Notes under the pieces: generated by a model
The model's database searches: none
What the model was told of the DNA's origin: nothing
The model's input: only the letters and a program-made list of their open reading frames with translations
Position numbers and translations under genes: made by a program
Origin: a virus
Direction: 5' to 3' (one strand)
IMG/VR virus record: IMGVR_UViG_3300035183_000242
Span: 1 to 48,945 of that record
Length of the DNA: 48,945 nucleotides
Part shown: in pieces, positions 1 through 48,818 of the stretch
How the letters are laid out: every line of letters begins with the position of its first letter
Position numbering within the stretch: position 1 is the first letter of the stretch

Positions 1-101
1 TACCGCCTAGTTGCAACAACGATGGGGGTTTCGCATTCCTTGCAAACCCACACCCATTGCAGACCGATTGCTTTTGGTTTTACAAGGTTATTATTCATAC
101 G
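1..101. repeat. Terminal direct repeat, left copy
   Basis: Bases 1-101 are identical to 48845-48945. This is the overlap left when a circular assembly is written linearly, and its length of exactly 101 suggests an assembler word-size overlap rather than a true packaged terminal repeat. The copy carries the 5' part of the cassette gene listed at 48709-48942 (start codon at 96-98 here). Confidence 0.95.
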
Positions 102-191
102 CCCAACGGTCTTGCGTTAGCCGCCGCCGCTTTCAGAATTTTCGTTGTCCGTCTCTCCGCCAGCGGCGGTCGGCTGCACGCCTTGTTGGGC
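101..191 (-). repeat. attC-like recombination site A
   Basis: Imperfect inverted repeat of 91 bases. On the minus strand it starts with R''-like GCCCAAC (191-185), runs into AAGGCGTGCAGCCGAC and ends CGGCTAACGCAAGACCG followed by R'-like GTTGGGC (107-101). The two ends pair with a few unpaired bases, as in attC sites, and match the known RYYYAAC / GTTRRRY termini and inner CAGCCGA / TCGGCT boxes. It lies at the 3' end of the gene at 117-326, the arrangement of an integron cassette. The next cassette gene starts only 2 bases after its R' end. Confidence 0.82.
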
Positions 192-326
192 AGATTTCTT
201 GGCCTGCATATCAAGATCGCGAAGCAAAGCCTCAATCTCCCAACACATACAAGTTTCATCACACAATACAACGGCTTTTTTCGTGTGCCTTTCAAGCAAT
301 TTTTCAAGTTTCTTTTTTAATTTCAT
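117..326 (-). CDS. Cassette gene A: small lysine-rich hypothetical protein
   Basis: A 69-aa protein of unknown function. The start is the second of two adjacent ATGs (326), 6 bases after AGGAG; the first ATG (329) would be too close. The N-terminus is very basic (MKLKKKLEKLL) and probably helical, followed by CDETCMC. The last third is encoded by attC site A: the frame reads through the 5' half as AQQGVQPTAAGG and stops within the site. The tail is therefore recombination-site sequence rather than conserved protein. It is the fourth gene of the cassette array counted from promoter 1877-1905, between sites B and A. Confidence 0.7.
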   Translation of the reverse strand: MKLKKKLEKLLERHTKKAVVLCDETCMCWEIEALLRDLDMQAKKSAQQGVQPTAAGGETDNENSESGGG

Positions 327-341
327 CATTCGCTCCTATCT

Positions 342-433
342 GCCCAACGGTTTTGCGTTAGCGGCTTGCGCCACTAACTACTTTGCTTTCAGACGCGCCC
401 GCTGGCGCAAGTCCGCTGCACGCTGTGTTCGGC
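342..433 (-). repeat. attC-like recombination site B
   Basis: A 92-base imperfect inverted repeat. Minus strand: GCCGAAC (433-427; one base off RYYYAAC), then ACAGCGTGCAGCGGAC, ending CCGCTAACGCAAAACC and GTTGGGC (348-342). The TTGCGCCA and TGGCGCAA segments in the middle pair as an additional stem. It lies at the 3' end of the gene 358-657 and directly ahead of the SD of the next cassette gene. Confidence 0.8.
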
Positions 434-657
434 GGCTGTAATTTGCGGAGATACGCATTTACGCCATCCACTTCACCGAACGGTTCAGACATTTCCTTTT
501 CAACAAATGGACAATTGACTTCAAAGCAATGTGACAAGGCGCCAAATTGCTCATCCATTAAAAGCCCGAAGATAACTTTCTTGCATGAGCCAAAACAATG
601 CGTTTCAATCTCGGCTTTCTGCAAGCCCCAAACGGTTACAAACATTTTTTCAGCCAT
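358..657 (-). CDS. Cassette gene B: hypothetical protein
   Basis: A 99-aa protein of unknown function starting MAEKMFVTVWG at 657, preceded by AAAGGAGAATC. The frame is open further upstream to 732, but that part crosses attC site C and lacks an SD. Several cysteines and histidines (THCFGSC, SHCFEVNCPF) could bind a metal, but no family is recognised. The C-terminal residues from about PPNTACSGL onward are encoded inside attC site B. Cassette position is between sites C and B. Confidence 0.68.
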   Translation of the reverse strand: MAEKMFVTVWGLQKAEIETHCFGSCKKVIFGLLMDEQFGALSHCFEVNCPFVEKEMSEPFGEVDGVNAYLRKLQPPNTACSGLAPAGASESKVVSGASR

Positions 658-679
658 GATTCTCCTTTTGCAAGATGCC

Positions 680-804
680 GCCGAACTGTTTGCGTTAGTT
701 GCGAGGCGATTTGCAAAGCCCGCAAATATCAAAATTTACACTGCAAAAGGAATTACATTTTTTGCAGCACCAGTAAGCCCCGTCAACTGCACGCTTTGTT
801 AGGC
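680..804 (-). repeat. attC-like recombination site C
   Basis: A 125-base imperfect inverted repeat. Minus strand: perfect R'' GCCTAAC (804-798), AAAGCGTGCAGTTGAC, a long central arm, then ACTAACGCAAACA and GTTCGGC (686-680; one base off GTTRRRY). TTTGCAAAGC / GCAAAAGG-type complementarity extends the stem. It lies at the 3' end of gene 695-925. Confidence 0.78.
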
Positions 805-925
805 GGCCAGATTGTTCGCGGAGGTCTGCAAGTTGCTCAAATGCCTCTTCTATAACTTGCGGGTGGCTTTCAAGAATTGCCCATTTGCCATCACGCGCCC
901 ATTCAAGAACATCATCAATTTGCAT
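695..925 (-). CDS. Cassette gene C: small zinc-finger protein (RanBP2-like pattern)
   Basis: A 76-aa protein with SD AAGGAAG before the ATG at 925. The first half is acidic and helical (MQIDDVLEWARDG...). The C-terminal part has W-C-C-x2-C-x10-C-x2-C, close to the RanBP2-type zinc-finger spacing W-x-C-x2-C-x10-C-x2-C, though the usual Asn in the x10 segment is Cys. The finger is encoded within attC site C: the site's terminus reads RLTKRAVDG and its variable central arm supplies the cysteines. That would make the site protein-coding and functional. No further function can be assigned. Confidence 0.72.
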   Translation of the reverse strand: MQIDDVLEWARDGKWAILESHPQVIEEAFEQLADLREQSGRLTKRAVDGAYWCCKKCNSFCSVNFDICGLCKSPRN

Positions 926-949
926 ATTACTTCCTTTCTAGGCGAAGCC

Positions 950-1021
950 GCCTAACATGTGATTATACGGATTAGATTAATTTCTATTGCTCCCAAGCCC
1001 ACGCGCCGCGCGGGGTTAGTC
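950..1021 (-). repeat. Degenerate attC-like remnant
   Basis: GTTAGGC on the minus strand at 956-950 matches an R' terminus and is followed by GGCGGCTTCGCC, the small hairpin also seen after site G. The other end, GACTAAC at 1021-1015, is off consensus and the inner boxes do not pair. It marks the left end of the three-gene block 1029-1823. The rest of the 926-1028 gap shows nothing else. Confidence 0.3.
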
Positions 1022-1028
1022 AATTGCA

Positions 1029-1244
1029 TTAATGAGAGCGTCTAGGTTTTTCGCAGATGTCATTGACATCTGCTTCACCTCTCGCAAGATGGCCTTGCGC
1101 CTCGGCGTCTGTCTCCGAAAGGCGCGCCAAAAATGCCATTTTGTCTGATGCAGGCAGCCACATGGTACCGATTTGATACAGGGCTTCGGGAAGCGTTGGG
1201 TGTTAAAGGTGGTAGGTGTAACCATTGGCCCTTACAGTATTCAT
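1029..1244 (-). pseudogene. Small ORF interrupted by an in-frame TAA
   Basis: The ATG at 1244 has a good SD (AAGGAGAC, 6 bases away) but meets TAA at codon 14 (1205-1203). The same frame then stays open for 57 more codons with protein-like composition (LPEALYQIGTMWLPAS..., acidic LSETDAEAQGHLARGE) and stops at 1031-1029. The overlapping frame on 1016-1225 is Arg/Cys-rich and looks like a shadow. Most likely a gene inactivated by one nonsense mutation (CAA to TAA would suffice). Readthrough is possible but not shown. It follows 1263-1529 in the promoter 1877 transcript. Confidence 0.5.
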
Positions 1245-1262
1245 TGTGTTGTCTCCTTATCC

Positions 1263-1529
1263 TTAATCCCTACGGTTTGCTCCCCTGGCTGGCGGGAGCG
1301 TGGCGGAATATCCAGGGCGCATGCTCAAATACACAACTGCTTTGCCTTGCAACGCCCTGTTTTTGATATAAGTTAACATGCCTGACCATGTCGCGAATCC
1401 ATTTACCTCGGCGGCGAGTTTCAATTCATCTTTTCGCTTGTTACCTCGCCTTGTGTTTGGATTCATGCCGTGCGCGTCGCCTTTCGGGGACGGTTTCCCG
1501 TCCTCTTTCGTTTTGTTTTTTGTTTTCAT
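1263..1529 (-). CDS. Hypothetical basic protein, paralogue of 2198-2398
   Basis: An 88-aa protein starting MKTKNKTKEDG at 1529, after AAGGAGAAAA. It shares a layout with the gene at 2198-2398: lysine-rich N-terminus, P-x-PKGD, a TRR/TKR basic patch, then AAEVNGFATWSGMLT (AAERDGFETWSQALT in the paralogue). The GF-x-TWS-x2-LT segment is probably a small helical DNA-binding or protein-binding unit. The family is not recognised. The pair lies on either side of attC site E, which suggests duplication or repeated acquisition. Confidence 0.68.
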   Translation of the reverse strand: MKTKNKTKEDGKPSPKGDAHGMNPNTRRGNKRKDELKLAAEVNGFATWSGMLTYIKNRALQGKAVVYLSMRPGYSATLPPARGANRRD

Positions 1530-1548
1530 TTTTTCTCCTTTTTTGTTA

Positions 1549-1573
1549 GGGAGCCGCAAGGCTCCCTTTTTTT
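1549..1573 (+). terminator. Hairpin with T-tract on the plus strand
   Basis: GGGAGCC-GCAA-GGCTCCC (1549-1566) followed by seven T's on the plus strand has the form of a rho-independent terminator for rightward transcription. No rightward gene is present. Read leftward, the hairpin is followed by an A-rich stretch and the SD of 1263-1529, so it is not a terminator for the real genes. It could block antisense transcription or be a leftward mRNA processing structure. Confidence 0.5.
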
Positions 1574-1823
1574 ATTCAATCTCAACCTTCCTGATTGTGA
1601 CGGACGTCTTTACGACACCGTAAATCGTATTATACAAGTCCTCCGCAGATACCCCCACCATCATAACCCGACCGCTGTCAATATCACCATATTTGCGGTC
1701 ACATCCATGCTCTTTTGCATACGCTTCGGCAGAGTCGTAATTCAAAAAATACTTTCGGATTTCCGTCTCGGTCATTTCCTCTCCGTCAAGAGAGCATATC
1801 ATTTCAAGTTCGTATGCGTTCAT
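1572..1823 (-). CDS. Hypothetical acidic protein, first gene after the array promoter
   Basis: An 83-aa protein starting MNAYELEMICSLDGEEM at 1823 after AAGGAGAAAAAA. The open frame extends to 1859 but lacks an SD there. Mixed alpha/beta composition, acidic N-terminal half, no recognised motif. It is the first gene downstream of the promoter-operator at 1877-1905 and leads the block 1823-1029 between attC site E and the remnant at 950. Confidence 0.68.
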   Translation of the reverse strand: MNAYELEMICSLDGEEMTETEIRKYFLNYDSAEAYAKEHGCDRKYGDIDSGRVMMVGVSAEDLYNTIYGVVKTSVTIRKVEIE

Positions 1824-1876
1824 TTTTTTCTCCTTTTTGATTTTGTTGATGCCGCGCATTTTAAACTTATATCCCT

Positions 1877-1905
1877 ATATTACTACACGTTGTACAACGT
1901 GTCAA
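1877..1905 (-). promoter_or_regulatory. Near-consensus sigma70 promoter with 18-bp palindromic operator
   Basis: On the minus strand: -35 TTGACA (1905-1900), 17-base spacer, -10 TAATAT (1882-1877). A perfect palindrome ACACGTTGT/ACAACGTGT covers 1885-1902 inside the spacer, an ideal repressor position. The promoter at 2875-2903 has the same -35, -10 and spacing and a CGTTG-CA-CAACG version of the palindrome. It lies just downstream of attC site E and points into the cassette array, so it is placed like an integron cassette promoter. Confidence 0.85.
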
Positions 1906-1941
1906 GGTTTTTTGGATACCAATTTTCGAGCAAGACAGGCG

Positions 1942-2070
1942 GGCTAACGGACTGGCGTTAGCCGCTTTGCCGTTTTAATCATCACGATGGATACAGTAAT
2001 TGACTTCGCCACAGATAGGACATGCTATGCCGTCGCCCGTAGGCAAAGTCGGCTGCACGTGTTGTTGGGC
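1942..2070 (-). repeat. attC-like recombination site E
   Basis: A 129-base imperfect inverted repeat. Minus strand: R'' GCCCAAC (2070-2064), AACACGTGCAGCCGACTTTGCC, a long central arm, then GGCAAAGCGGCTAACGCCAGTCC and R' GTTAGCC (1948-1942). The inner CGACTTTGCC / GGCAAAGCGG stem pairs well. The gene 1975-2187 ends inside it. It is the first full site of the array in transcription order. Confidence 0.82.
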
Positions 2071-2187
2071 GGCATTCAAAGATTGCAGGGCTTCCAACAC
2101 CTCCGATTCACTGAGCGTGCGGAAACCATCCTCTTTAAAGTCCGTAAACAACGCTATCAGCATATTGACCGAATAAATTTTTCCCAT
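1975..2187 (-). CDS. Cassette gene E: small protein with C-terminal CPIC motif
   Basis: A 70-aa protein starting MGKIYSVNMLIALFTDF at 2187 with SD AAGGAAAACGAC; an upstream in-frame ATG at 2223 lies within the preceding gene's end. The body is helical (LSESEVLEALQSLNAA). The tail QQHVQPTLPTGDG is attC site E sequence, and the last residues CPICGEVNYCIH form a possible zinc-binding knuckle encoded by the site's central arm. Function unknown. Confidence 0.7.
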   Translation of the reverse strand: MGKIYSVNMLIALFTDFKEDGFRTLSESEVLEALQSLNAAQQHVQPTLPTGDGIACPICGEVNYCIHRDD

Positions 2188-2197
2188 GTCGTTTTCC

Positions 2198-2398
2198 TTA
2201 TGTAGTTTCAAGTTGGGGTTCACGCTTTATTAGGCGCGCTTCACCCTTCGCCCACGCTGTAAGGGCTTGCGACCATGTTTCAAAGCCATCACGTTCCGCC
2301 GCCGCTTGCCAGCGGGCGATCTTTGCTCTACTCCGCTTTGTGCTGGTTGTGTCACCCTTTGGGGCTGGGAAACCAGCCCCTTTTTTCTTGTTTTGCAT
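2198..2398 (-). CDS. Hypothetical basic protein, paralogue of 1263-1529
   Basis: A 66-aa protein with SD AAGGAG 7 bases before the ATG at 2398. It has P-x-PKGD near the N-terminus, a TKRSRAKIARW basic patch and AAAERDGFETWSQALT, shared with 1263-1529. Its 3' end contains GCCTAATAAAGCGTGAACC (2235-2217), resembling the 5' half of an attC site with one mismatch in the R'' box, but no matching R' end follows. That suggests a decayed or truncated cassette end. Transcribed from the promoter at 2875-2903 after 2410-2844. Confidence 0.68.
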   Translation of the reverse strand: MQNKKKGAGFPAPKGDTTSTKRSRAKIARWQAAAERDGFETWSQALTAWAKGEARLIKREPQLETT

Positions 2399-2409
2399 TG
2401 CGCGGCTCC

Positions 2410-2844
2410 TTAATCAATCGGTCGCCCCAACGAACCCGCGCCGCGTCCGCCGTCATACTGGTCTATGTTTCTCGGATGATGATACCGAGTTACATAACTT
2501 AAGTAATCAACGAAAGTTTCGTGTTCTTCGCCGTCGCTCGTGTAACCTTCGTTTTCCACAAAATCCAGAAAGTAGTCTCGAAGAGTTTCGAGAGATATGC
2601 CGTACTTAGCGGCAAGTTGACCGTTAGTCATGCCCTTTCGGGTGCGGGTTTGCGGGTCCGTCGTACTGATAATCTCACATCTGTTTGCCTCGTCGTTGGT
2701 GGCTTCGTACCAATCGCCATTGACCATCACTAAAGTTCTGCCGATTTTGTCAGTTTTAACAACCTGCACTTTGCCTTCATCTGCATATTCCCTGTCATAG
2801 ACCCACTTCCAAACTCTCACAGTGTAACCAATCTGTACGTTCAT
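2410..2844 (-). CDS. Hypothetical protein with helix-turn-helix-like segment
   Basis: A 144-aa protein, SD AAAGGAG at 9-10 bases before the ATG at 2844. The N-terminal half is beta-rich (VQIGYTVRVWKWVYDREY...). From about residue 71, MTNGQLAAKYGISLETLRDYF fits a helix-turn-helix, preceded by a TRTRKG basic stretch; the C-terminus is Gly/Arg-rich. It is the first gene of the transcript from 2875-2903 and might be its regulator, but that is only inferred from position and the HTH-like segment. Confidence 0.72.
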   Translation of the reverse strand: MNVQIGYTVRVWKWVYDREYADEGKVQVVKTDKIGRTLVMVNGDWYEATNDEANRCEIISTTDPQTRTRKGMTNGQLAAKYGISLETLRDYFLDFVENEGYTSDGEEHETFVDYLSYVTRYHHPRNIDQYDGGRGAGSLGRPID

Positions 2845-2874
2845 TTCATCTCTCCTTTTGGTGTGTACTGCTTA

Positions 2875-2903: not shown

Positions 2904-2943
2904 GGGCAAAAGACCACCAATTTTCATTGCAGACCTGACAAGC

Positions 2944-22567: not shown

Positions 22568-25500
22568 TTCAACACCTTGATATATTTCACGGCGGGTAAA
22601 CTGCAAACATGGGCGAGGTTTCCAGAAATGTTGAGCCAAGACGTTCCAAAGTCACTTGTAAACCAAACAAATCCGCCACCAGCAACCCAACGATTCGGGT
22701 TGTACTTGGCCCAAGAAAATGCTCGAGTCGCAAGAGGCAGAATGTCATTGATGGAGTGCCAAGTCGAGCCATAGTCGCCAGAGGCAAAAGCTCCTCCCCC
22801 GGACGGGCAAATCATCAACTTTTGACCAGTCGGCTCTACACCCAACCACCACAATGGGTATGGAAAGCCAATTGACTTGCCGCCACCAGTTTCAATAATG
22901 TTTGAGCCATTTCCAGTGACCAAATAAAATCTGTCGAATGAAGTGGCATAGAACATACTAGACGAACCAACACGAACATGACCAGGGCCGGGGGATAGGC
23001 TGTCATTGTAGTCAATGCGTGGGCCAATTTGAGAACCGGACTGGCTAAAGTTCCAAATCGCTACATCCAAAAAGATAGATCTGATCGCTGCTGTCAATGA
23101 CCATTGCCCACCGCCAAAAGTGATGCAGCCAGGCGATCCAGACAAGTCTAGCAGATGTTCACCAGCGGAGAAGCCATATTCATTGCCGACGTAGAAATGG
23201 CCGTCAAGGTATCCGGGCGGCCCAGCCTTTTTCACTCCAGCCACCATAGCAATTTGGTCGTTAGCAACTGAGTTCACGCCAACCGCGACAAGCATGACTC
23301 CCTCGCCAGGACCAGCACCACACTCGGACAAAAGCCAGTCATTATCAAAGACCTGTCGCCAGTATCCGCCAAGACCATCTGTGCACCAAAGTTCATTTCC
23401 TGCGTTTTGGAAAGAGTCATACCCATAGTAGGCAATATAAATCTTGCCGTACTGCGTGACGAGAATTTCGCTGATATTCTGACGATGCCAAGCGTCCAGA
23501 CCGCCATTCATGGCAAGCCAATGCGCTCCATCCAAAGAGTCACCATCGAGGGTGTAATAAAACCCTCGTGTCTGCTCCAGCAAAATCATTTCTTTTGGCA
23601 AATCACTAACATTCGTACCGGGCGGCAAGTACGGGTCGTCAGGCGGCTTTGTCTTTGGAGGATTGGTATCATCCTCGTCAACATTGGGGATGTCGCCTTT
23701 CACACCATGGATGGGAGTGACTTCGGCCTCACAATCCAATTCCGTAAGCAAGAACCCGCCTTCAAGGTCAATGGAATATGTAATTCCACGAACAATCAAG
23801 TTCATCGACAATTCCTGTTCGCGAATGGTATCCTCGACCTGCCCATCTCTGGAGATAAATTGATTCGGCCACATGCTCACACAACGAAAGTTTGAAGCTA
23901 CCTTCAATGGCACATCCGGGAACGGGTTATTCTTGAACGCATAGATAGCGCCAGCAAGGGCAATGGCTTGGTCTTGTCCCTCCAGAAGCAAACGGTCTGC
24001 CGTTAGCGGGCGTCCATAATGCGGAAGGGAGTGTCCGGGAGAGAGAGCGTACCAAGTGGACGGTTTCCCGTCCAAGGTGACGGAAATTCCAGAGATGTTC
24101 ACGACCGATGTGTCTTCAACTTGACGGCGGCGAATCTCCCCACTTGGGAGGAGGTCTTCATCTTCAAATTGATAAACCACATCCCAATCACGGTCAGGGA
24201 CCGGAACAAGTTGCGGTTCGACGCAAAGCCAAAACTCGCCCAACTGGTCAACGCCAGGTCGGGCAAAAATTGAATTGACTGCCATGTCATCAATCTGCTC
24301 CCAAATGGTGGAACTGGACGTTTCAAACCCAGCAGAATAGAGCGTATTTCCAGACAAATTGATATTCATAATCAACGTGGCTGTACTGCGCCAATGGAGC
24401 AAATGCCAAACGGCAATGTCAATATTCAAGCCATCAACCTTGACCCAACTATCCTCATCTGTTGTCCTCAAACCAATGCCTGGGGGGTATCCAGGAATGG
24501 AGCGGAGAAAGTAATTCGCTCCCTTCACTTCAAATGTTACAGTACTTTCATCCTTCGACCAACGAATGGTCTCTCCTGCGATGTATCCAACGCAAACGAT
24601 GTTCTCGCAACCAGGCTTGAATCCAATGGACTGTTTGGCAGCGCCATACCAATCCTCGGCAAAAAGAACCACCTCGGCTCGGTCTCGGAGCAAGGATTTC
24701 GAAGCATCCCCATGCGCGGTTATGGTGAATGAGAATCCACCATCCTCATAACTGCCAGAGATTTGCCCTACAATAATAGGCGACTCTGGGGGTGATATTC
24801 TACTTTCAACATAAACCCAACGAACAACCGTAAACGCCTTTCCATTGTTTGCTCTAACAGTGCAATAGTAAAACTTCTTTCCAGGCGTTGTAAACCGCAT
24901 AGTCAAAGCGCCTGTATTTTCACCAACTAAAGATGAAGCATCCGAGCAAGTCCATCTGAACGAAGAAATGGAAGAGCCGAAAACAAACGAACGAGAAGCG
25001 GTCGCCTCAACTTCGGCCATAAAAACCTGTCCAACAAACGAGTGAATCGAAATCCAATGCCATGACGAACTTGGGTTCTTTTTTCCAGTCACAACGACTT
25101 TCAAAGTGTGAGACGTGTCTAAAAGACCAGTAGAAGTATAAGAATCGGTCAAATAAGTATCAACCTCATTCACCAAAACATCATCAACATAAATCCCGGC
25201 AATCCCATTGTATATGCCAGTCCCGAAGTTGACAGTAAACTCACGCCCAAAAAACTCCAACTCTGCATAACTGCCAACAAAGTCAGAATTCATTGCTCCA
25301 CTTCCACCGTTTACCCAAGTGCCAATAAATCTGAACACGCGGTCGTTTATATTGAAAACCTGAGAAATAGTTGGTTCCAACCATACAACTTTTGGAGCGT
25401 CAATTAGCACCAATGGGTCAAAGTTCTCATTCTGGTCAGTGTATTCAATATCTCCATCCATAAGAACATTCGCATCTTCATCAACAAAAACATGCTTAGC

Positions 25501-25854
25501 CCAAAGCAAATAGTCCCTATAAACCGTGATGTAATGGTCTTCGGCAATGCGAAGGATGGATTCTTCGCCAATGTAGAACGTTGTATTAGTAGGCGCTTTT
25601 CTAACCCGCGCCCATCCTATCTCATGTCCACCATCGGTAGTGCCAATGGCAACTGTCATTCCAGGCAAGACATCAGTATAGTTGCCATAGGTGGAATCAT
25701 CCCACAGGAACTCCTTCAAAAAGTCCCAAGTGGTGAAAGTTTGATTGACTCTGGCCTTGAAAACCACATCAGGATTATCAAGGCCGGTCAAATAGAACTT
25801 ACTAAACTGAGGGCCACTTCGCAGTAAGGCTTTTTGTTCTGGACTTACAATCAT
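22564..25854 (-). CDS. Large tail-tip / baseplate protein with Ig-like and propeller-like regions
   Basis: A 1096-aa protein; the ATG overlaps the stop of 25851-26243. The N-terminus (residues 1-170) resembles tail-tip attachment domains. Residues 190-360 are beta-rich with a PKD/Ig-like stretch (TCSDASSLVGENTGALTMRFTTPGKKFYYCTV). A middle part (about 370-720) may be the hub, and the last 340 residues have repeated Asp-box-like elements (GDYGSTWHSIN, SDFGTSWLNIS) typical of beta-propellers. It probably binds host surface glycans and joins the fibre to the tail tube. Confidence 0.8.
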   Translation of the reverse strand: MIVSPEQKALLRSGPQFSKFYLTGLDNPDVVFKARVNQTFTTWDFLKEFLWDDSTYGNYTDVLPGMTVAIGTTDGGHEIGWARVRKAPTNTTFYIGEESILRIAEDHYITVYRDYLLWAKHVFVDEDANVLMDGDIEYTDQNENFDPLVLIDAPKVVWLEPTISQVFNINDRVFRFIGTWVNGGSGAMNSDFVGSYAELEFFGREFTVNFGTGIYNGIAGIYVDDVLVNEVDTYLTDSYTSTGLLDTSHTLKVVVTGKKNPSSSWHWISIHSFVGQVFMAEVEATASRSFVFGSSISSFRWTCSDASSLVGENTGALTMRFTTPGKKFYYCTVRANNGKAFTVVRWVYVESRISPPESPIIVGQISGSYEDGGFSFTITAHGDASKSLLRDRAEVVLFAEDWYGAAKQSIGFKPGCENIVCVGYIAGETIRWSKDESTVTFEVKGANYFLRSIPGYPPGIGLRTTDEDSWVKVDGLNIDIAVWHLLHWRSTATLIMNINLSGNTLYSAGFETSSSTIWEQIDDMAVNSIFARPGVDQLGEFWLCVEPQLVPVPDRDWDVVYQFEDEDLLPSGEIRRRQVEDTSVVNISGISVTLDGKPSTWYALSPGHSLPHYGRPLTADRLLLEGQDQAIALAGAIYAFKNNPFPDVPLKVASNFRCVSMWPNQFISRDGQVEDTIREQELSMNLIVRGITYSIDLEGGFLLTELDCEAEVTPIHGVKGDIPNVDEDDTNPPKTKPPDDPYLPPGTNVSDLPKEMILLEQTRGFYYTLDGDSLDGAHWLAMNGGLDAWHRQNISEILVTQYGKIYIAYYGYDSFQNAGNELWCTDGLGGYWRQVFDNDWLLSECGAGPGEGVMLVAVGVNSVANDQIAMVAGVKKAGPPGYLDGHFYVGNEYGFSAGEHLLDLSGSPGCITFGGGQWSLTAAIRSIFLDVAIWNFSQSGSQIGPRIDYNDSLSPGPGHVRVGSSSMFYATSFDRFYLVTGNGSNIIETGGGKSIGFPYPLWWLGVEPTGQKLMICPSGGGAFASGDYGSTWHSINDILPLATRAFSWAKYNPNRWVAGGGFVWFTSDFGTSWLNISGNLAHVCSLPAVKYIKVLK

Positions 25855-34990: not shown

Positions 34991-35845
34991 TTACTTTTTC
35001 CTGAACCTGTATTTGCAAAGGCAATGCACAATGCAAGTCGCTTCTCCAATCGGGACCATCTCGTTTATCGGAATCCATCCCTTCGCCGCCAACTCAACAC
35101 AACCATGATGGGCGCGGCTGTCGTGGCAGTGATTTTCATTGGGACTAAGAACCCGACGCGCGTACTTGAAGCCATTGGACTGCGCTACCGCCAGCAAGTT
35201 GTTCTGATAAACCGCGTTCCCTGCTCTGGCATACATGCCCGCACGCACGACGGCAAATCCATTCAACGGCTGCGCTCCCGAATTGAGTTGGTCGAGGAAG
35301 TTGTTCAACCACCGATACTGTGGAGCCACCGCCCTACCAAAAAGCGCACGCTGACGACGGTTGTAATTCTGCTTTCCGCCAATACTGGCAATCCACGCCG
35401 CTCGATATTGGTCGCGCATCAACTGGCGCATCTGCTCGTACCACTGGAGTTTCGAGATTTCTCCATTGACTAGCCGCATGGTCAAATCCCGCATGGCCTG
35501 TTCCTGAGCGCGGGAGACCCGAAGCACACCCAACTTCACGCGGTCTTGCGGAACCAATCGGCCAGAGAGGACATACCGAAAGACGCCATCCTCGTCATCC
35601 CAATAGACTTCGGCGGGAGTGCGGGCATTCAGGACAATGCCATCTGAGCCTTCACGAACATTGGCATGGAGCAACCCGTAAACTCCCGCAGTCTGGTTCC
35701 ATAGCGTAACACTGGAGGATGCGTCTTCCTCGGCAAACTCCAAAAATAACTCGACGTCAGAGAGTGGGCGCACATAGCCCGCATCCCGCATGAAGGGACG
35801 GCGCACAGAAGCCAAAAACTTAGGGAGAGACAGAAGTGCCATCAT
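34991..35845 (-). CDS. MuF/SPP1 gp7-like head morphogenesis protein
   Basis: A 284-aa protein starting at 35845 or 35842 (two ATGs, AAGG upstream), overlapping the portal gene's last 26 bases. C-terminal SPNENHCHDSRAHHGCVELAAKGWIPINEMVPIGEATCIVHCLCKYRF has the Cys/His pattern of the MuF-type minor head domain. The central helices (VSRAQEQAMRDLTMRLVNGEISKLQWYEQMRQLMRDQYR) are also typical. Directly follows the portal gene, the usual place. Confidence 0.8.
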   Translation of the reverse strand: MMALLSLPKFLASVRRPFMRDAGYVRPLSDVELFLEFAEEDASSSVTLWNQTAGVYGLLHANVREGSDGIVLNARTPAEVYWDDEDGVFRYVLSGRLVPQDRVKLGVLRVSRAQEQAMRDLTMRLVNGEISKLQWYEQMRQLMRDQYRAAWIASIGGKQNYNRRQRALFGRAVAPQYRWLNNFLDQLNSGAQPLNGFAVVRAGMYARAGNAVYQNNLLAVAQSNGFKYARRVLSPNENHCHDSRAHHGCVELAAKGWIPINEMVPIGEATCIVHCLCKYRFRKK

Positions 35846-37919
35846 CTTCAGCGCCTTCAAACGGAGGATTGCCAAGTTTCAATGAGTGCAACGTTGAGCC
35901 GCTGTACAAGTAAATCTCGTTGAAGTTCACTTCAAGCGGTTCGGTAGACTGGACTGGCAATGCCGCATCATGGGGAACATAGGCTAAGGTCACGCCGGGT
36001 GAGAAGACACGCTCTTTGTGATACGGGATGTCGTATATATCCAATAAGGCGGTCAAGGCATGGTGGAAGCCCGGCAATTCAGGACTATCAGCCGTAAGAA
36101 CCACAGGGTCAATTCCATTGTCACCAGCGAAGCGAGTAATGCCTCCCAGTTTGACTTTTAGGGGCGAAGCAATGGAGGCAAAATCCATGACCGCTTCCAT
36201 GATAGCCGTCATGTCTAATGCGCGAGAATCGCCAATGTAGCACAGGGTGATATGCAGATTCATCAATATCTCTGGGGCAATGAACGGAAACCGATTGGAC
36301 AATTCCGCGCTAATAGCGTCAGGGATACGAAGGGCAACCATTACCGAGTATTCATTATCATCTGCCTCATTCCGCCAAGTGGAAGGCCAAGGGTTTGAGA
36401 ACTGAGATACCTTCTTCTTGGAGAGTATGTCGGCGATTTTTCTGATGTCAGTTTTTTGGCGCTTTGGCCCGAAAACGCCAGTCAGTTTTGACCACAGACT
36501 TTCAGGCTTTTGCGCGGGAGTGGGCCACGAGAATTCGGGAACCTTCGCAGGAACTCCCTGCGAACCAGGGGCCTTGGGGAACAACGCGGGGAAGGTCGGT
36601 TCGGGAGGCACATAGTCGAGATACCGCTTGGCAAATTCATCAGGCGGCATGATGGTCTCAGGCGCGCCGCCGCTTGCAGTCGAGAGAGCGCCTGCAATGA
36701 CGCCGGCGATTGAAGCCTTGTCAGATTCGGTGAGCTGGAACAGGGAGGGCCAAGTCACCGTGTACTTGGGCGGAACCTTCAACACGCCCAATTGACCACA
36801 GCGGTCAATAAAGGCGCGGAGAATATAGGGTTCAGCAAACCGCTTCTGGCGGGCAGAAATATAGGCCGCAAAGTTGTACTCGTCCTGAGACGACGCCAAC
36901 TGACCTGCCTCTGAACCAACCAAGATGCGCTGCGGAATATGCGACGCGCCTGCCAGATAGTCGATAATCGTGTTGAATTGGGCATCACTATCAACGGGCT
37001 GCCCTCCCAAATCAGTTACATCCACATTGGACAAAAGCATCCAGCGTTTGATTTGATTTGCATAATCTTCAATCTCGTCACGGATGTCTTCAAAGTTTGG
37101 TGAGCCTTGCGGCGGAACCTGCGCGTTCTCCTTGGCCGAAATGAGCATCCCGCGATGGATGAGCAACCAGAACGCCTCACTCCCACCGCCTACAACCTTT
37201 TCCAGGTCCATGAGCCGGTTGAACATCGGCTGTAACCGAGGGACGCCATAAATCTTGGAGTAGAGACGACGGGAACGACCTTCCTTCACGTGAATGACAC
37301 GGGAGTAATGGACACGATAACGAGCGCCATGCGAGGCGTCCACGCTGATGAAATAATATTCAGGCAATCCAAAGCGAGGGCTTTTCATGTCCGTGACAAT
37401 GGACAGTTCATCCACCTCTGCGCTCCCCTCATCGTGAACAGACACATATAGCAAGCTGCTTGGCCCCAATACAACTGGAGCAGGCTGCTCCATGTCGCCC
37501 GGCAAGCCAAGCAGAATAAGAGCAAAACGACTGATGCCGCAAGATGCATCAGCCTCATTGAACGCGGTGAACAAGTCAAGCCGTTCAGCCAATTGCGTGA
37601 AACTTCGCTGAAATTCATCTGGGTTGTCCAATTCATCCCGTTTGACATTCTCGCCAATGGAGAGGGAGGGACGTTCTCGCCACGTCTCGTCCGAGACCGC
37701 GTCCACAATGCGAGTCGCCAAACCATCCCGCTCATACATGGCAAGGAAGTCGGCAAACTGCAACTGGCGAGGATACCCCAATACCTCGTACATATCTCGG
37801 GCCCCATTGAATGAGCGGCCAAGGTTAGCCGATAACTCGGCTCGACGTACCAAGGCCCCATTTAGTTGTGCGCTGTTCGGAAACAGTCGGTTCTTTTTGG
37901 TCATCTTTCTTTTGTTCAC
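35820..37919 (-). CDS. Portal protein (DUF1073-like) fused to a C-terminal 2H-phosphoesterase-like domain
   Basis: A 699-aa protein starting with GTG at 37919, 6 bases after AAGGAG and overlapping the terminase stop (GTGA). Residues 40-450 look like a DUF1073-type portal (RDMYEVLGYPRQLQFADFLAMYERDGLATRIVDAVSDETWR, IPQRILVGSEAGQLASSQDEYNFAAYI). Residues about 520-690 form a second domain with the 2H phosphoesterase motif HIT (H556, T558) and a second motif position reading GVT (G642, T644) in FSPGVTLAY, where the fold normally has HxT. Domains of this kind joined to this portal family include Acb1-type anti-CBASS nucleases. Loss of the second His questions catalysis. Confidence 0.83.
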   Translation of the reverse strand: MNKRKMTKKNRLFPNSAQLNGALVRRAELSANLGRSFNGARDMYEVLGYPRQLQFADFLAMYERDGLATRIVDAVSDETWRERPSLSIGENVKRDELDNPDEFQRSFTQLAERLDLFTAFNEADASCGISRFALILLGLPGDMEQPAPVVLGPSSLLYVSVHDEGSAEVDELSIVTDMKSPRFGLPEYYFISVDASHGARYRVHYSRVIHVKEGRSRRLYSKIYGVPRLQPMFNRLMDLEKVVGGGSEAFWLLIHRGMLISAKENAQVPPQGSPNFEDIRDEIEDYANQIKRWMLLSNVDVTDLGGQPVDSDAQFNTIIDYLAGASHIPQRILVGSEAGQLASSQDEYNFAAYISARQKRFAEPYILRAFIDRCGQLGVLKVPPKYTVTWPSLFQLTESDKASIAGVIAGALSTASGGAPETIMPPDEFAKRYLDYVPPEPTFPALFPKAPGSQGVPAKVPEFSWPTPAQKPESLWSKLTGVFGPKRQKTDIRKIADILSKKKVSQFSNPWPSTWRNEADDNEYSVMVALRIPDAISAELSNRFPFIAPEILMNLHITLCYIGDSRALDMTAIMEAVMDFASIASPLKVKLGGITRFAGDNGIDPVVLTADSPELPGFHHALTALLDIYDIPYHKERVFSPGVTLAYVPHDAALPVQSTEPLEVNFNEIYLYSGSTLHSLKLGNPPFEGAEDDGTSVSP

Positions 37920-39280
37920 GGTTTTCTCCTTCCGGGCGCGCCAACAAATTTGGCGGTCGAGACTGTAATCACAGAGCAGGCATATCGAAGCGCATCCAGC
38001 CGATGGAAGGTGTTCTTGTTCTCAATGTCGTTCAGCACTTCCCCATCTGGAGTGACCTTGCGGCGGTAGCTTGAGAACTCGTGCCGTAAACCACCAAGCG
38101 ATGGGTGAATCTTTAGCCTGCCGAGTTTTAATAATTCTATCACGTTGCTGATACCAACTTCAATATCTGGCAGGGACGGTTGTTCGACAAACACTCCCTC
38201 CCGTTTCCAATCCATACGGGGTTGGGTCTCACTGGCTGATCCGCCCACTACGCGATAATGTTTCGCGCCAGACAGGCGAAGCAACATATTGCTCGCGTGC
38301 ATTTTAGTGGATAGGCCACCTTCTAACTCCTCCCGATAGGCATGGAACACAGAGGGTGTCACGTCCACATTCTCAGCCAAGTAAATCGTAGCCGTGTTCG
38401 CGCCGCCAAAGTCTAAACCAACGATGCGCGGCCAGTGGGCGGGTATGGCTTCCAAGTCCACATCCGACAACATGGTCTGTTCATCATATTCTTTGTACAC
38501 CAAGCCAAAGGGTCGAACGAACTTGGCCTCATAGAACATCTCGAAGCGCCAACCCGGCAAGGTGTCCTTTGCACGCTGGAATTCCACTTCTGGGAATGCT
38601 GGGTTCATGGTCGATGCAAACTGAATGACATCATAGTCTGTATCGCCAGCAACCCAACGGTCATAGACAAATGTCTTAAGCCATCCCAGATTGTACGGCG
38701 TGGTGGTGCCAAGTACGCGGCCCTGATGGATGGAGAGACGTCTTTGCACGGCCTCCCAAGCTTCATACTTGAACTCGTCCTGTCCGCACTCGTCCAACCA
38801 TGCCGCTTTTGCCGTAGCCGACTCAAGGCCCGCTTTTGCCGACGCTGTCCTCAATAAGATGCGAGCATACATTGGGTCGTGTTGCGACTTTGCCAAAAAG
38901 CCTTTGGATGGATGGGCAATCTCCAAAACCCCAAGCCCAGGCCAGAACTTCCCGATATGCAAGATTTTGTCGAAATACTCCATCATGGCCGGGAGCATTT
39001 TCAATTTGAATAAGCCGTAGTTGGAGGTAACGGCGAGATAGTCGCCGGGCCCCTGACGTTTGATTTCCTCAAAAAGCCAAAGCGGGCCGCTCACCGTCTT
39101 TCCACCCTGAGCGCCCGAAATCATGAAAACAAAGCGGTTAGGTGAGGTCAATGCCCTCACCTGACCGCTGTGTAAACTTAGTGAGATTTCGCCGTTATCA
39201 CTTACCTTGACCAGTTTGTTGTACAGGCTCAATCTTGACGGCGGGGAAGGCTTTTTCACCACTATCCCCCGCTCCGCCAT
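37916..39280 (-). CDS. terL: Terminase large subunit
   Basis: A 454-aa protein from the ATG at 39280 (AGGCG upstream); the frame is open to 39346, which would overlap the small subunit by 149 bases. ATPase: Walker A SGAQGGKT at 55-62, Walker B WLDE at 161-164, coupling motif GTTTP near 191. Nuclease: first acidic residue D290 in VGLDFGG. It cuts concatemers and pumps DNA into the prohead through the portal encoded next. Confidence 0.93.
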   Translation of the reverse strand: MAERGIVVKKPSPPSRLSLYNKLVKVSDNGEISLSLHSGQVRALTSPNRFVFMISGAQGGKTVSGPLWLFEEIKRQGPGDYLAVTSNYGLFKLKMLPAMMEYFDKILHIGKFWPGLGVLEIAHPSKGFLAKSQHDPMYARILLRTASAKAGLESATAKAAWLDECGQDEFKYEAWEAVQRRLSIHQGRVLGTTTPYNLGWLKTFVYDRWVAGDTDYDVIQFASTMNPAFPEVEFQRAKDTLPGWRFEMFYEAKFVRPFGLVYKEYDEQTMLSDVDLEAIPAHWPRIVGLDFGGANTATIYLAENVDVTPSVFHAYREELEGGLSTKMHASNMLLRLSGAKHYRVVGGSASETQPRMDWKREGVFVEQPSLPDIEVGISNVIELLKLGRLKIHPSLGGLRHEFSSYRRKVTPDGEVLNDIENKNTFHRLDALRYACSVITVSTAKFVGAPGRRKP

Positions 39281-39818
39281 AATCGCCTGCACTAAGGCCA
39301 AGTTGCTCAATCGCGCTTTCGTAGATGCGTCTAAGTGTTTCATCATCTGCTGTCACAGCCTGCATCAACCAATCGGGCAAACCCAGAGACGCCCGCTCAA
39401 AACTCAACCCTGTTTGCATAGCCTGAATTGCTACGGCCATGTTGTTCACAACCAAGACGGGACTTCCATCCGGGTTGAGTTTGGGCTGACCTGTTTTACT
39501 GTCTACGGCGGAATTCACAAACTGCAAGGCCGCACGCTGGAGCAACCTTCCGTACTGCGCCTGCCGCTTCAAAAAGTCAACTTGCTGTGCAACACTGTCC
39601 TCGAACGCCCGCTTCTGGACAGCCCGATCACGCTCGTCCGCTCGCGCATCCCAACCATACTTCTTGCGCCATCGGTTCACCGTGTCCACAGAAACAATCT
39701 GGGGAGGGGTGTCTAACCGCAGATTTCGGCACGTCGAGGCGGTATCGCGTTTCAGACTGTACCACAGTTCAAACACCGCAAGGTGTTTGGAGTTTTCCTT
39801 TTGCGGTTTTGGAGCCAT
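39198..39818 (-). CDS. terS: Terminase small subunit
   Basis: A 206-aa protein, SD AGGTG, ATG at 39818 overlapping the previous TAA. N-terminal DNA-binding region with the terminase-type helix-turn-helix (SVDTVNRWRKKYGWDARADERD) at residues 43-65; helical oligomerisation part (VAQQVDFLKRQAQYGRLLQRAALQFV) follows. The C-terminus is acidic/Gly-rich. Directly upstream of the large subunit gene. Confidence 0.82.
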   Translation of the reverse strand: MAPKPQKENSKHLAVFELWYSLKRDTASTCRNLRLDTPPQIVSVDTVNRWRKKYGWDARADERDRAVQKRAFEDSVAQQVDFLKRQAQYGRLLQRAALQFVNSAVDSKTGQPKLNPDGSPVLVVNNMAVAIQAMQTGLSFERASLGLPDWLMQAVTADDETLRRIYESAIEQLGLSAGDYGGAGDSGEKAFPAVKIEPVQQTGQGK

Positions 39819-45871: not shown

Positions 45872-45877
45872 GCCCAC

Positions 45878-45906: not shown

Positions 45907-45963
45907 GACTTTTCCTTGTTTTTTTCCTTACCAGATTTGTCCAGACGCACGCAAAATCAAAAA

Positions 45964-46178: not shown

Positions 46179-46200
46179 ATGTTTATGCTGTAATTATCAT

Positions 46201-46755
46201 TCAATCCTCGAACAAACCATGAGCCGCATGGGCATAAGTCTGGATTTTCCGCCCGCGGCTGGAATTTCCATCACCATACTGCTCGGCCTGACCACGTTCC
46301 GAAAACGTGCGAGGAAAGAACAACTCCCCGCACTCAAAACACCGAAGCATCCCAAAATTCATGGCAGAGCGCCCTCCGGAATGGTCGCAGGTGGAAAGTC
46401 CAGCAAGAGCCAACCACAACTGCTCTTCCGCTTTCATAACCATTCCCTGACAAGCCTTCTCGCTCACCCCTGCTCGTTGCATCCGATTGGCAAGGTAGCG
46501 GGCATATTCGATTTGGGAGTAGGCAGAGACCACATACTTGTCCGCAGGGTCAAGGTATTCTACTTTGAGGGCCGCAGTGTCAATGAAGATTTCACTCCCA
46601 TCGGTCAAGCGCACAGTCACCATCAAAACACGCCCACACTCAATCCCCATCAAGCGAAGTTTGGAGTTGGCCTTGACACGCTCCAGCAGGTCAGGCTGCG
46701 GCGGGATTGAGACTGGATGGTGGCCTTTCCGAACAACGACAAGACTTCCGTTCAT
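46201..46755 (-). CDS. Hypothetical protein with zinc-binding C-terminal half
   Basis: A 184-aa protein, SD AGGAGG before the ATG at 46755. The N-terminal part is beta-rich (LRLMGIECGRVLMVTVRLTDGSEIFIDTAALK). CDHSGGRSAMNFGMLRCFECGELFFP (about residues 122-147) offers C-H...C-x2-C ligands. No family recognised. Second gene after the promoter at 47112-47140. Confidence 0.72.
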   Translation of the reverse strand: MNGSLVVVRKGHHPVSIPPQPDLLERVKANSKLRLMGIECGRVLMVTVRLTDGSEIFIDTAALKVEYLDPADKYVVSAYSQIEYARYLANRMQRAGVSEKACQGMVMKAEEQLWLALAGLSTCDHSGGRSAMNFGMLRCFECGELFFPRTFSERGQAEQYGDGNSSRGRKIQTYAHAAHGLFED

Positions 46756-46764
46756 ATCTTCCTC

Positions 46765-47067
46765 CTATCCTGCTTGGGTCAATCCACCACAGTGCGAACA
46801 ATGATAATGATGCTTCACGACACCACACTTACACTGGCCGTCAGGCATGTAAACCCAATCCAACCCTCGGAACAGATTGCAATCGTCCGTGTTGTGGCAA
46901 GCGCGGCGGGTGAAAATGGGCCGACAAACCGTCCCTGCCTCTTCACGAGCCTGCGCCTCGCGCAAGGCAATCAAGGCCAATACCTCACCATTCTGAACAG
47001 GTGAGGCGCGAAGCGTGCGAAGGGCCTCCATGTTCTGCAAGGTTTTTTCATCAGTTTGAGTTTGCAT
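46765..47067 (-). CDS. Hypothetical cysteine-rich protein
   Basis: A 100-aa protein, AGGAG about 12 bases before the ATG at 47067. Helical start, then CHNTDDCNLF and a C-terminal CKCGVVKHHYHCSHCGG zinc knuckle. First gene of its promoter. Function unknown. Confidence 0.7.
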   Translation of the reverse strand: MQTQTDEKTLQNMEALRTLRASPVQNGEVLALIALREAQAREEAGTVCRPIFTRRACHNTDDCNLFRGLDWVYMPDGQCKCGVVKHHYHCSHCGGLTQAG

Positions 47068-47111
47068 TTCCGTCCGATTCTCCTAAATCGTTGGATGTTA
47101 CTGATGCAATT

Positions 47112-47140
47112 ATTCTAATGTACGTCTCTGAATTTGTCAA
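47112..47140 (-). promoter_or_regulatory. Sigma70 promoter for 46765-47067
   Basis: Minus strand: -35 TTGACA (47140-47135), 17-base spacer, -10 TAGAAT (47117-47112). Confidence 0.83.
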
Positions 47141-47146
47141 GGAAAA

Positions 47147-47338
47147 TCAAGCGTTTTCGTGAATGTTCACGCTTTTAGCAAGCGCCTTTGCGCTTGCTGG
47201 AAAGTCTGCAAAGCGGCGGTCATTCACCCACTGTTCAAGGGTTGGCGGTTCCTTCTTGTACAAGGCGCATCGCGCCGCCTCCAACTTGTACAGTTCAATA
47301 ATGACATTGGCGAGGGATTGGTCTGGTGATAGGTTCAT
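47147..47338 (-). CDS. Small hypothetical protein
   Basis: A 63-aa protein; ATG overlaps the previous stop (ATGA), AAGGGA upstream. Helical (LANVIIELYKLEAARCALYKKEPPTLEQWVNDRRFADFPASAKALAKSV). Function unknown. Confidence 0.68.
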   Translation of the reverse strand: MNLSPDQSLANVIIELYKLEAARCALYKKEPPTLEQWVNDRRFADFPASAKALAKSVNIHENA

Positions 47339-47538
47339 TTTTTGTTTCCCTTGCAGTCTTCACAATTGCACGCAAGGCCGTTCTCTTTTGCTTGTCGGCC
47401 TTTGGCATGTTCTTTTCTGGCAACTTCATACGAGATTCTGTGCTCAATGGCAATCAACTGATAGGGTTTGCCGTGATAGCCAGCAAACCGAATCAGGGCT
47501 AAGCCAATTGCGCGTTTGGACGGCCTTTTCGTTTTCAT
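47335..47538 (-). CDS. Small hypothetical basic protein
   Basis: A 67-aa protein, TAGGAAAAA before the ATG at 47538. Basic with a possible HTH-like helix (LIAIEHRISYEVARKEHAKGRQAKENG) and a terminal CNCEDC cluster. Overlaps genes on both sides by 4 bases. Function unknown. Confidence 0.68.
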   Translation of the reverse strand: MKTKRPSKRAIGLALIRFAGYHGKPYQLIAIEHRISYEVARKEHAKGRQAKENGLACNCEDCKGNKK

Positions 47539-47635
47539 TTTTTCCTACCAATCACTACAATGCGGGTCTTGACATCGGCGTCACTGAGGTGGAGAGCCTT
47601 CTCTGGCAATTCAACTTATTCACCAAATTTACCAT
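47535..47635 (-). pseudogene. Frameshifted 33-codon ORF
   Basis: ATG at 47635 has a strong SD (GGAGG) in the end of the NinG-like gene and reads MVNLVNK, then continues in frame to an early stop with unlikely sequence. Shifting -1 after AAG gives VELPEKALHLSDADVKTRIVVIGRKK and a TGA that overlaps the next ATG (ATGA), exactly like neighbouring junctions. One missing base near AAGTTGAA (about 47612-47620) would explain this: a real deletion or an assembly error. Confidence 0.5.
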
Positions 47636-48066
47636 GCCTCCTCCAGAATATTTTCCATTTCTGCAATCTTGGCCTGCAACTCAGGAATTGACCACTTGAA
47701 TGTGTGAAACTTTGCAGCAATGGTTCGCAAATATTGCGGGACTGCGCGTCCATGCTTTTTCCAAAGGTACCTCTCGTAGGCTGACTGGTCAACCTTATGA
47801 TTTTGGTTGCAGGTGGCGCACTGGCAGTTCAGGTTTAGCCTGTACTCGAACCTCAAGTACATTGAGGCTCTAGGAATGAAGTGAGAGCAAGTCAATTCTT
47901 GGCGGCTCCCACAGGTCACACACTTCCCATCGCGGATGCGGACATACTTAGAGCAAAGTTCATCCAGCCGCCTTTCGAGTTTTGCGCGTTCTCCCTTTGG
48001 GCTTCTGGAGAGTGGCTTTTTCGTCTTCTTCTTCGGCTTTGGGGCTGGTTTGGGCACTGGTCTCAT
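47629..48066 (-). CDS. NinG-like recombination nuclease
   Basis: A 145-aa protein from the ATG at 48066, with a very basic Pro/Lys-rich N-terminus. Zinc-HNH pattern of the lambda NinG (Rap) family: CVTC (49-52), LTCSHFIPRASMYLRF, CQCATCN (83-86), YERYLWKKHG. NinG acts on branched recombination intermediates. The SD AAAGGAG is better placed for an overlapping frame starting at 48076 (38 codons, acidic, MDEYETSAQTSPKAEEE...) that ends at 47960, so a start upstream or dual coding is possible. It lies directly after attC site G. Confidence 0.78.
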   Translation of the reverse strand: MRPVPKPAPKPKKKTKKPLSRSPKGERAKLERRLDELCSKYVRIRDGKCVTCGSRQELTCSHFIPRASMYLRFEYRLNLNCQCATCNQNHKVDQSAYERYLWKKHGRAVPQYLRTIAAKFHTFKWSIPELQAKIAEMENILEEAW

Positions 48067-48104
48067 ATTCGTCCATTTTTCTCCTTTCGGTTTCGGGCGA
48101 AGCC

Positions 48105-48227
48105 GCCCAACGGTTTGCGTTAGCGGTTGGCGAGACAACCGCACTCATGCCAAGCAAGACCACAAATCGTACAATTACCTAAATTATCCTACGCTGTAAG
48201 CCCGTCCGCTGCACGCCCTTGTCGGGC
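48105..48227 (-). repeat. attC-like recombination site G
   Basis: A 123-base imperfect inverted repeat. Minus strand: GCCCGAC (48227-48221; one base off RYYYAAC), AAGGGCGTGCAGCGGACGGGC, long central arm, then CGCTAACGCAAACC and perfect R' GTTGGGC (48111-48105), followed by GGCTTCGCCC. The last site of the array in transcription order, ahead of the NinG-like gene. Confidence 0.78.
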
Positions 48228-48413
48228 AGACTGACTGTTAGCAAAGATTTCTTTTAGGGCGGCTTCTTGCCCTTCTGCGTAGCCTTTTAAGCACACTTCA
48301 CACTTGCACGGCATTTCACTTGACGTATCAATACCATCGTACATTGCGTCATCGTATCCATTTTGCCATGCGTCAAAACCATCTTGCCAAGCATTCGGAT
48401 TATGTTCGCTCAT
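48189..48413 (-). CDS. Cassette gene G: small acidic protein
   Basis: A 74-aa protein starting MSEHNPNAWQDGFDAWQNGYDDAMYDG at 48413, SD AAGGAG at 7 bases. Repeated W-Q-x-GF/GY-D units, then CKCEVCLKGY and YAEGQEAALKEIF; such short Asp/Trp-rich proteins with a C-x-C-x2-C motif occur in phages. The last residues ARQGRAADGLTA are attC site G sequence. Confidence 0.7.
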   Translation of the reverse strand: MSEHNPNAWQDGFDAWQNGYDDAMYDGIDTSSEMPCKCEVCLKGYAEGQEAALKEIFANSQSARQGRAADGLTA

Positions 48414-48434
48414 GTTTATTCTCCTTCTGAGTCT

Positions 48435-48484
48435 GCCCAACGGTTTTGCATTCTGGCTCTTGCCACTAACGCAAACCGTTAGAC
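48435..48484 (-). repeat. Compact attC-like site H
   Basis: Only 50 bases: GCCCAACGGTTTTGC...GCAAACCGTTAGAC on the plus strand, with GCCCAAC (48435-48441) and GTTAGAC (48478-48484) termini. The arms pair almost end to end through TGGC/GCCA with little central loop. Both halves resemble the R'-side of the other sites, so it may be a shortened or rebuilt site. The gene 48479-48661 stops inside its R'' box. Confidence 0.72.
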
Positions 48485-48661
48485 CGCTTCTTTGCGCTTA
48501 AGCAACTCATCTGATTTTGAATCAACGGGGTCTGCAACTGCCGATAAGACTTTCAAAAGCAATACGACCAATTCTTCATCAGTTAGATTAAAGCGGTGTT
48601 GAACATACTCAACGCTATCTAGTAATTCTTGGTGGGGCGTTCTATCGCCGAAATATGACAT
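48479..48661 (-). CDS. Cassette gene H: small helical protein
   Basis: A 60-aa protein starting MSYFGDRTPHQELLDSVEYVQHRFNL at 48661, SD AAAGGAG. Acidic helices (DEELVVLLLKVLSAVADPVDSKSDELLKRK). The TAA stop is part of the GTCTAAC terminus of site H. Function unknown. Confidence 0.7.
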   Translation of the reverse strand: MSYFGDRTPHQELLDSVEYVQHRFNLTDEELVVLLLKVLSAVADPVDSKSDELLKRKEAV

Positions 48662-48692
48662 TGCTATAACTCCTTTTATTTGCAAGATATGG

Positions 48693-48818
48693 GTCTAACG
48701 GTTATGCTTTACTGGCGGGGCGGTTCTAGCAAAGTATCATCGCCATCCAGTACATCAGCGGGCGTGTCCCCGCTGACTTTCGGGGCAGTAGCCCCGTCCA
48801 GTGCAAGCGGTGTTGGGT
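48693..48818 (-). repeat. attC-like recombination site I
   Basis: A 126-base imperfect inverted repeat. Minus strand: R'' ACCCAAC (48818-48812), ACCGCTTGCACTGGACGGGGC, central arm with GGGGACACGCCCG / GCCCCG pairing, then CCGCCAGTAAAGCATAACC and R' GTTAGAC (48699-48693). Termini fit RYYYAAC / GTTRRRY exactly. Inner boxes differ from the GCCGAC type of the other sites, pointing to a different source. Confidence 0.75.

Follow-up and report, generated by a model that had tools for sequence, protein, structure and literature searches.

How does a phage that encodes no integron integrase come to carry a row of integron-type gene cassettes? The question is raised by a viral genome, IMG/VR record IMGVR_UViG_3300035183_000242, whose full 48,945 nucleotides constitute the window analysed here. 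Toward its two ends lie seven imperfect inverted repeats resembling attC, the recombination site of integron cassettes. We think it likely that the locus is an integrase-less array of seven integron cassettes, accompanied by older remnants, into which cassettes were inserted singly, as circles, by an IntI not encoded by the phage, and were then exchanged.

The cassette array and its attC sites

The window holds the complete, circular genome of a tailed phage: its ends share an exact repeat of 101 bases, located within cassette E, and it encodes a DnaB helicase together with a terminase, portal protein, capsid, tape measure, and endolysin, the gene set by which tailed phages are recognized. Read along the minus strand of the circle, the repeats follow one another in the order A (2070-1942), B (804-680), C (433-342), D (191-101), E (48818-48693), F (48484-48435), and G (48227-48105), after which comes a NinG-like gene. 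They share one orientation, and each is preceded by a small open reading frame (ORF) whose stop codon lies within the site (7/7). All of these ORFs are on the minus strand: cassette A (1975-2187, start codon approximate), with a C-terminal CPIC..C tail; cassette B (695-925, 76 amino acids), with a zinc-ribbon-like, attC-encoded tail resembling those of other phage cassettes; cassette C (358-657, start approximate); cassette D (117-329, 70 amino acids); cassette E (48709-48942, 77 amino acids), which starts in the second copy of the end repeat and whose cassette begins, on the circle, at the R' box at position 101; cassette F (48479-48658, start approximate); and cassette G (48189-48411, start approximate), with a CKCEVC motif. 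Cysteine motifs are found in A, B, E, and G.

To judge the repeats against integrons outside phages, we built a covariance model of attC. A motif scan of 85k bacterial genomes yielded 37 loci in 26 genomes, and 35 sites from these loci alone, all in bacterial MAGs, were aligned, so that the model contains no phage sequence; the loci were, however, chosen through a 3'-half motif taken from the window phage, which leaves the 5' half and the pairing independent but the 3' half not fully so. The consensus is a hairpin of 22 pairs, 13 of which show compensatory double changes among the 35 sites. Run on the whole window, on both strands and with all filters off, the model gave strong matches to six of the seven, each confined to the minus strand, at E-values from 5e-10 to 1.5e-16: A (R'' GCCCAAC, R' GTTAGCC; 44.1 bits, E 5e-10), B (GCCTAAC, GTTCGGC; 66.6 bits, E 7e-16), C (GCCGAAC, GTTGGGC; 69.2 bits, E 1.5e-16), D (GCCCAAC, GTTGGGC; 63.9 bits, E 3.5e-15), E (ACCCAAC, GTTAGAC; 49.8 bits, E 1.8e-11), and G (GCCCGAC, GTTGGGC; 55.5 bits, E 5.6e-13). 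Most of the repeats, when the minus strand is folded, adopt the attC hairpin, in which CAGCCG-type boxes are followed by an unpaired base. A search of Rfam, which holds no attC family, gave no match for the window. By sequence and predicted fold, these six are genuine integron attC sites.

The seventh, site F, is different. It was the next-best match in the window (E 0.04), with a background score on each of its two strands (13.9 and 10.2 bits), and it is a near-perfect palindrome of 50 bases that retains the R and L boxes (R'' GTCTAAC, R' GTTGGGC) while lacking the extrahelical bases and central spacer. Its left arm resembles a right half-site (GCCACTAACGCAAACCGTTAGAC) copied in inverted orientation, and the site may owe its origin to template switching at an attC hairpin.

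Decayed remnants accompany the array. By eye, an isolated R' box, GTTAGGC, was found on the minus strand at 957-951. It is exactly complementary to GCCTAAC, the R'' of site B, and has lost its own L' box and hairpin; cassette B probably has its true left boundary here. The minus-strand ORF at 2198-2398 is a probable older cassette with a decayed attC, of which a half-site, GCCTAATAAAGCGTG, was likewise read by eye near 2240-2218. The body of this ORF resembles an ORF in viral locus L103 that ends at an attC. Both it and the ORF at 1263-1559 resemble array ORFs in other phages.

Neither an integron integrase (TIGR02249) nor any other tyrosine recombinase candidate was detected in the window. 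A complete integron, with intI and attI beside the array, is thus not represented, since intI is missing; the seven sites, spread over approximately 2.8 kb of the circle, form a cluster of attC sites lacking an integrase (CALIN), for which at least two close attC sites without intI are required. A prior sequence-only reading of this DNA had described the seven repeats, their single orientation with a small same-strand gene ending at each, the NinG-like neighbour (Pfam NinG, E 3.7e-10), and the lack of an intI-like gene, all of which we find, the repeats at the coordinates it gave. The attC identity that it gave to all seven is borne out for six, by strong scores and bulged folds, and fails for F, which has no attC asymmetry and scores at background. 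Its claim that the array is contiguous through the circular join is right as to circularity, but approximately 1 kb between 1942 and about 957 contains no detectable attC. The model search and the comparison of relatives described below were both called for by that reading; the first put six sites far above background, and the second found cassettes gained and lost between related phages, not constant collinearity.

Insertion footprint and cassette turnover

In a true integron TTRRRY, the final six bases of R', is part of the following cassette; each R'' is accordingly expected to agree with the R' of the site upstream, not with the R' of its own site. A strict regular expression demanding agreement between R'' and R' finds just one site in the window, because the two boxes of one site often mismatch, and the neighbour comparison was tried for that reason. 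It was run on sites located by a separate script, and the viral figures cover the loci other than the window. In bacterial loci R'' equals the upstream R' exactly in 31 of 35 cases and its own R' in 6 of 35; the viral loci give 47/79 and 14/79, respectively. The observed upstream match was reached in 0 of 10,000 permutations, and the match to own R' was at chance. Neighbouring sites in viral loci all share one orientation (89/89 pairs).

Within the window, once site F and the isolated R' box were added, five of six junctions inspected by eye are exact and one agrees at 3/4 positions. For B, the R'' agrees with the isolated R' box at 957 (GTTAGGC); for C, with the R' of B (GTTCGGC); for D, with that of C; and for F, with that of E (GTTAGAC). 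G matches the R' of F in the four variable bases, and it is E against D that gives 3/4. We read the neighbour match as the footprint of circular-cassette insertion with cleavage at G^TTRRRY. The same comparison offers a simple means of telling cassette-insertion arrays from chance hairpins. Strong hairpins at gene ends might be terminators or RNA processing signals that merely look like attC, and attC may itself weakly terminate transcription; we nevertheless count this explanation as refuted by the model scores and the footprint. The window hairpins match chromosomal attC sites in sequence, covariation, and extrahelical bulge, ORFs stop inside them, and a neighbour footprint would be meaningless for terminators.

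Such arrays recur among uncultured viruses. Two motif scans of IMG/VR gave approximately 80 loci with attC sites like those of the window (some overlap or share a record, so distinct records are somewhat fewer), and in these the model makes 304 matches at E-values up to 1e-4. Among 50 records inspected (49 bearing the motif and one relative found through a PAPS reductase), a terminase is detectable in 23 and an integrase above the integron cut-off in five, none of the five having a terminase. These five (G016, G024, G033, G043, and G045), which combine attC sites with a full integron integrase, may be chromosomal pieces, or phages or prophages bearing a whole integron. Three further circular genomes (G011, G020, and G052) carry an array and a terminase without intI. 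G052, one of these, is distantly related to the window phage and has its structural genes in the same order; its array, at 58.4-59.2 kb, has the DnaB helicase gene on one side and the terminase on the other, as in the window. A DNA-methyltransferase-like ORF in G052 (59256-60056, DPPYG motif) starts about 10 bases past the last R' box of its array, in the position of a cassette.

These genomes bear on whether the window itself might be a chimeric contig in which a bacterial integron was mis-joined to a phage. The circular join does fall in the array, within cassette E, and assemblers fail at repeats. Array sequence is present at both ends of the contig, with phage genes inward of each, and the arrays of the three other circular terminase-bearing genomes, including that of so distant a relative as G052, would have to be explained as well; cassette lengths and reading frames also differ from those of chromosomal arrays. 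A chimera is therefore very improbable.

Individual cassettes of the window have relatives in unrelated phages. Cassette E shares 90% DNA identity with a cassette in phage G015, and cassette G is 78% identical, between cassette borders, to one in temperate phage G036; in both cases homology begins at the R' boundary and stops in attC. Both carriers are phages by gene content and have no other protein in common with the window. Site D is 88-90% identical to sites in viral loci L058 and L064, and the body of cassette C shares 72% amino acid identity with an attC-less gene in viral locus L097. In that locus (1721-1933, record G037) the cassette C gene stands as an ordinary phage gene among no attC sites, and the homology spans just the ribosome-binding region and the ORF. 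The two genes are a possible before-and-after pair for the birth or loss of a cassette.

Turnover is clearest among sister phages. In G003, G011, and G049 the DNA flanking the array is 77-87% identical, and the arrays hold 12, 8, and 6 sites, respectively; the cassette bodies all differ, and matches within the arrays are only attC-sized. The 80-kb G003 has two terminase genes (24134-25627 and 78130-79518) and long internal stretches of 76-90% identity, which suggests either an assembly join or a tandem of two related phages. Elsewhere the search for comparison partners gave little: no relatives were found through a 557-amino-acid protein of the window, PAPS-reductase relatives of the window phage had no attC match and were uninformative on cassette gain or loss, and named phages were dropped as too distant.

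Phage cassettes also differ in build from bacterial ones. Their median length is 462 bp, against 801 bp, and an ORF runs into the attC in 108 of 138 phage cassettes compared with 18 of 60 bacterial ones. At least two CxxC motifs occur in 23/138 phage cassettes and 33/1,440 control ORFs, a rough contrast, as the control set includes spurious ORFs. From sequence, attC thus has a second role, encoding the end of the cassette protein. In viral loci such as L047, L052, L060, and L063, attC is read as protein tails in all three frames, yielding ends such as ..LTQRAADG..CxxC.., ..NTACSG.., and ..AQQSVQPTA.., often zinc-ribbon-like. The tails recur on differing gene bodies. The attC sites of one taxon are known to resemble each other, and for that reason we do not press the recurring tails as a clue to how cassettes are born.

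These comparisons weigh on the view that a host integron block was captured once, by illegitimate or homologous recombination, and has since been passively inherited and is decaying. Decay is visible in palindromic site F, in the isolated R' box at 957, and in the half-site near 2230; the phage has no integrase; and illegitimate capture has been proposed for some phage clusters (Qi et al. 2023, PMC9892861). Yet those window cassettes that have relatives (C, E, and G) have them in different phages, sister phages hold wholly different cassettes at one locus, and phage cassettes are shorter than those of hosts, with ORFs entering attC. A single fossil capture is accordingly quite unlikely.

The proposed loading enzyme and the likely source of the cassettes

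We propose that cassettes arrive one at a time as circles and that an integrase encoded outside the phage genome, most likely the IntI of the infected host acting in trans, would join them at G^TTRRRY. Its substrate would be the attC hairpins of DNA that becomes single-stranded while the phage replicates, and the phage lineage would then retain, swap, or lose cassettes. The array would thus serve as a docking locus for mobile genes, fed by a cassette pool common to other phages and to host integrons. Both the host IntI as the enzyme and exchange in the course of infection are inferred, as is a benefit of the small cassette proteins to the phage.

General recombination between conserved attC halves probably contributes too, because attC-encoded tails occur on differing bodies. 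Could such recombination, over the approximately 25-30 conserved bases and driven, for example, by phage annealing or with the help of NinG, account for the exchange in place of host IntI? The NinG-like gene bordering the array and the homology between cassette E and its G015 counterpart, which stops within attC, speak for this, as do the shared tails. Recombination within attC cannot, though, yield the match of R'' to the upstream R', the phase that marks cleavage at G^TTRRRY, and we regard it as rather unlikely to be the process in place of IntI.

Several observations count against insertion by IntI as we propose it. The automated footprint test on the window alone (five pairs) is not significant, so that the footprint is a claim about arrays of this class as a whole. 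Exact matches make up 59% in viral arrays as opposed to 89% in bacteria, a difference that points to decay or to sites that escaped detection. The conserved flanks of the sister phages end 0.3-1.3 kb outside the outermost detected attC sites, which places the borders of exchange there only approximately. Finally, the exact window cassettes occur in no bacterial integron among the bacterial loci compared.

As to the bacteria involved, 19 of the 26 genomes from the motif scan are named Chloroflexota, mostly Anaerolineae, and 12 of the 26 have an IntI above the curated cut-off. In one of them (G069, the record of Anaerolineales bacterium H5_CFX6), intI is directly followed by 31 sites of the window attC type. 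The model matches 13 of 60 genomes of the same class (Anaerolineae). In a control class it matches one of 59, a motif-scan genome by way of which that class had been selected. The occurrence of window-type attC beside intI in Anaerolineae, together with these class counts, makes Anaerolineae the likely source of the cassettes; intI was reported in Chloroflexi in 2008 (PMC2426708). The host of the window phage is probably also a member of the Chloroflexota (Anaerolineae). The attC type points there, but cassettes move between hosts, and the window capsid matches Anaerolineae genomes at just 24-33% identity, too weakly to name a host.

Put more broadly, we lean toward the idea that phages of Chloroflexota keep a dedicated, fast-changing cassette locus that host integrases load in trans during infection. 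It would draw on a pool shared among phages, of compact, phage-adapted cassettes whose genes run through attC and take from it a tail that is often a zinc ribbon.

The remaining landmarks of the carrier are all on the minus strand. The large terminase gene (37916-39346; PHROG 2, E 9e-25) marks it as a phage, and the portal protein gene lies at 35820-37919 (PHROG 146, E 2e-58). A C-terminal extension of the portal protein, common to G003 and G029, matches a phage RNA ligase profile (PHROG 14859, E 4e-8). The gene for a NinG/Rap-like junction endonuclease at the array border (47629-48144; PHROG 5034, E 1.3e-15) overlaps the R' side of site G when its longest ORF is taken; its true start codon is likely further in.

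Comparison with known systems

If cassettes are loaded as we suggest, the array would offer integron cassettes a route between cells inside virus particles, and a source of the enzyme that is open to testing. The attC type gives a handle on the hosts of unassigned phages. The cassettes themselves make up a set of small phage genes that change hands quickly, and they are candidates for roles in counter-defence or in taking over the host.

Class 1 and Vibrio integrons have the cassette layout, R and L boxes, extrahelical bases, and circular-cassette insertion that we describe for the window. The window differs from them in having neither intI nor attI, in its attC sequence, and in that no resistance genes were seen. 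Closer to it are the sedentary chromosomal integrons of Anaerolineae, exemplified by G069, which have the same attC consensus and hairpin; they differ in being chromosomal and in having intI, with 31 sites beside it. Cassettes of the bacterial loci are longer (median approximately 800 bp) than phage cassettes, and their ORFs usually end before the attC.

Phage arrays without an integrase are already on record: 17 such attC clusters were found among 10,705 deposited phages, virulent ones included, and IntI1 recombined five of six phage attC sites assayed (Qi et al. 2023, PMC9892861). The impression in the sequence-only reading that carriage by a lytic-looking phage was new therefore does not stand. 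Our searches of the open-licence literature turned up neither Chloroflexota-type cassette arrays in phages nor their turnover among sister phages; the link to Chloroflexota, the recurrence of the arrays, and the turnover of cassettes are probably new. The presence of attC clusters, until now an occasional oddity of a few phages, thereby becomes a feature that recurs across uncultured phages and is apparently dynamic. Like the published phage CALINs (Qi et al. 2023, PMC9892861), the window combines a phage genome, co-oriented attC sites, and small genes with the lack of intI; unlike them, arrays of the window type are of Chloroflexota type, recur in approximately 80 uncultured viral loci, bear an insertion footprint, and turn over between sister phages.

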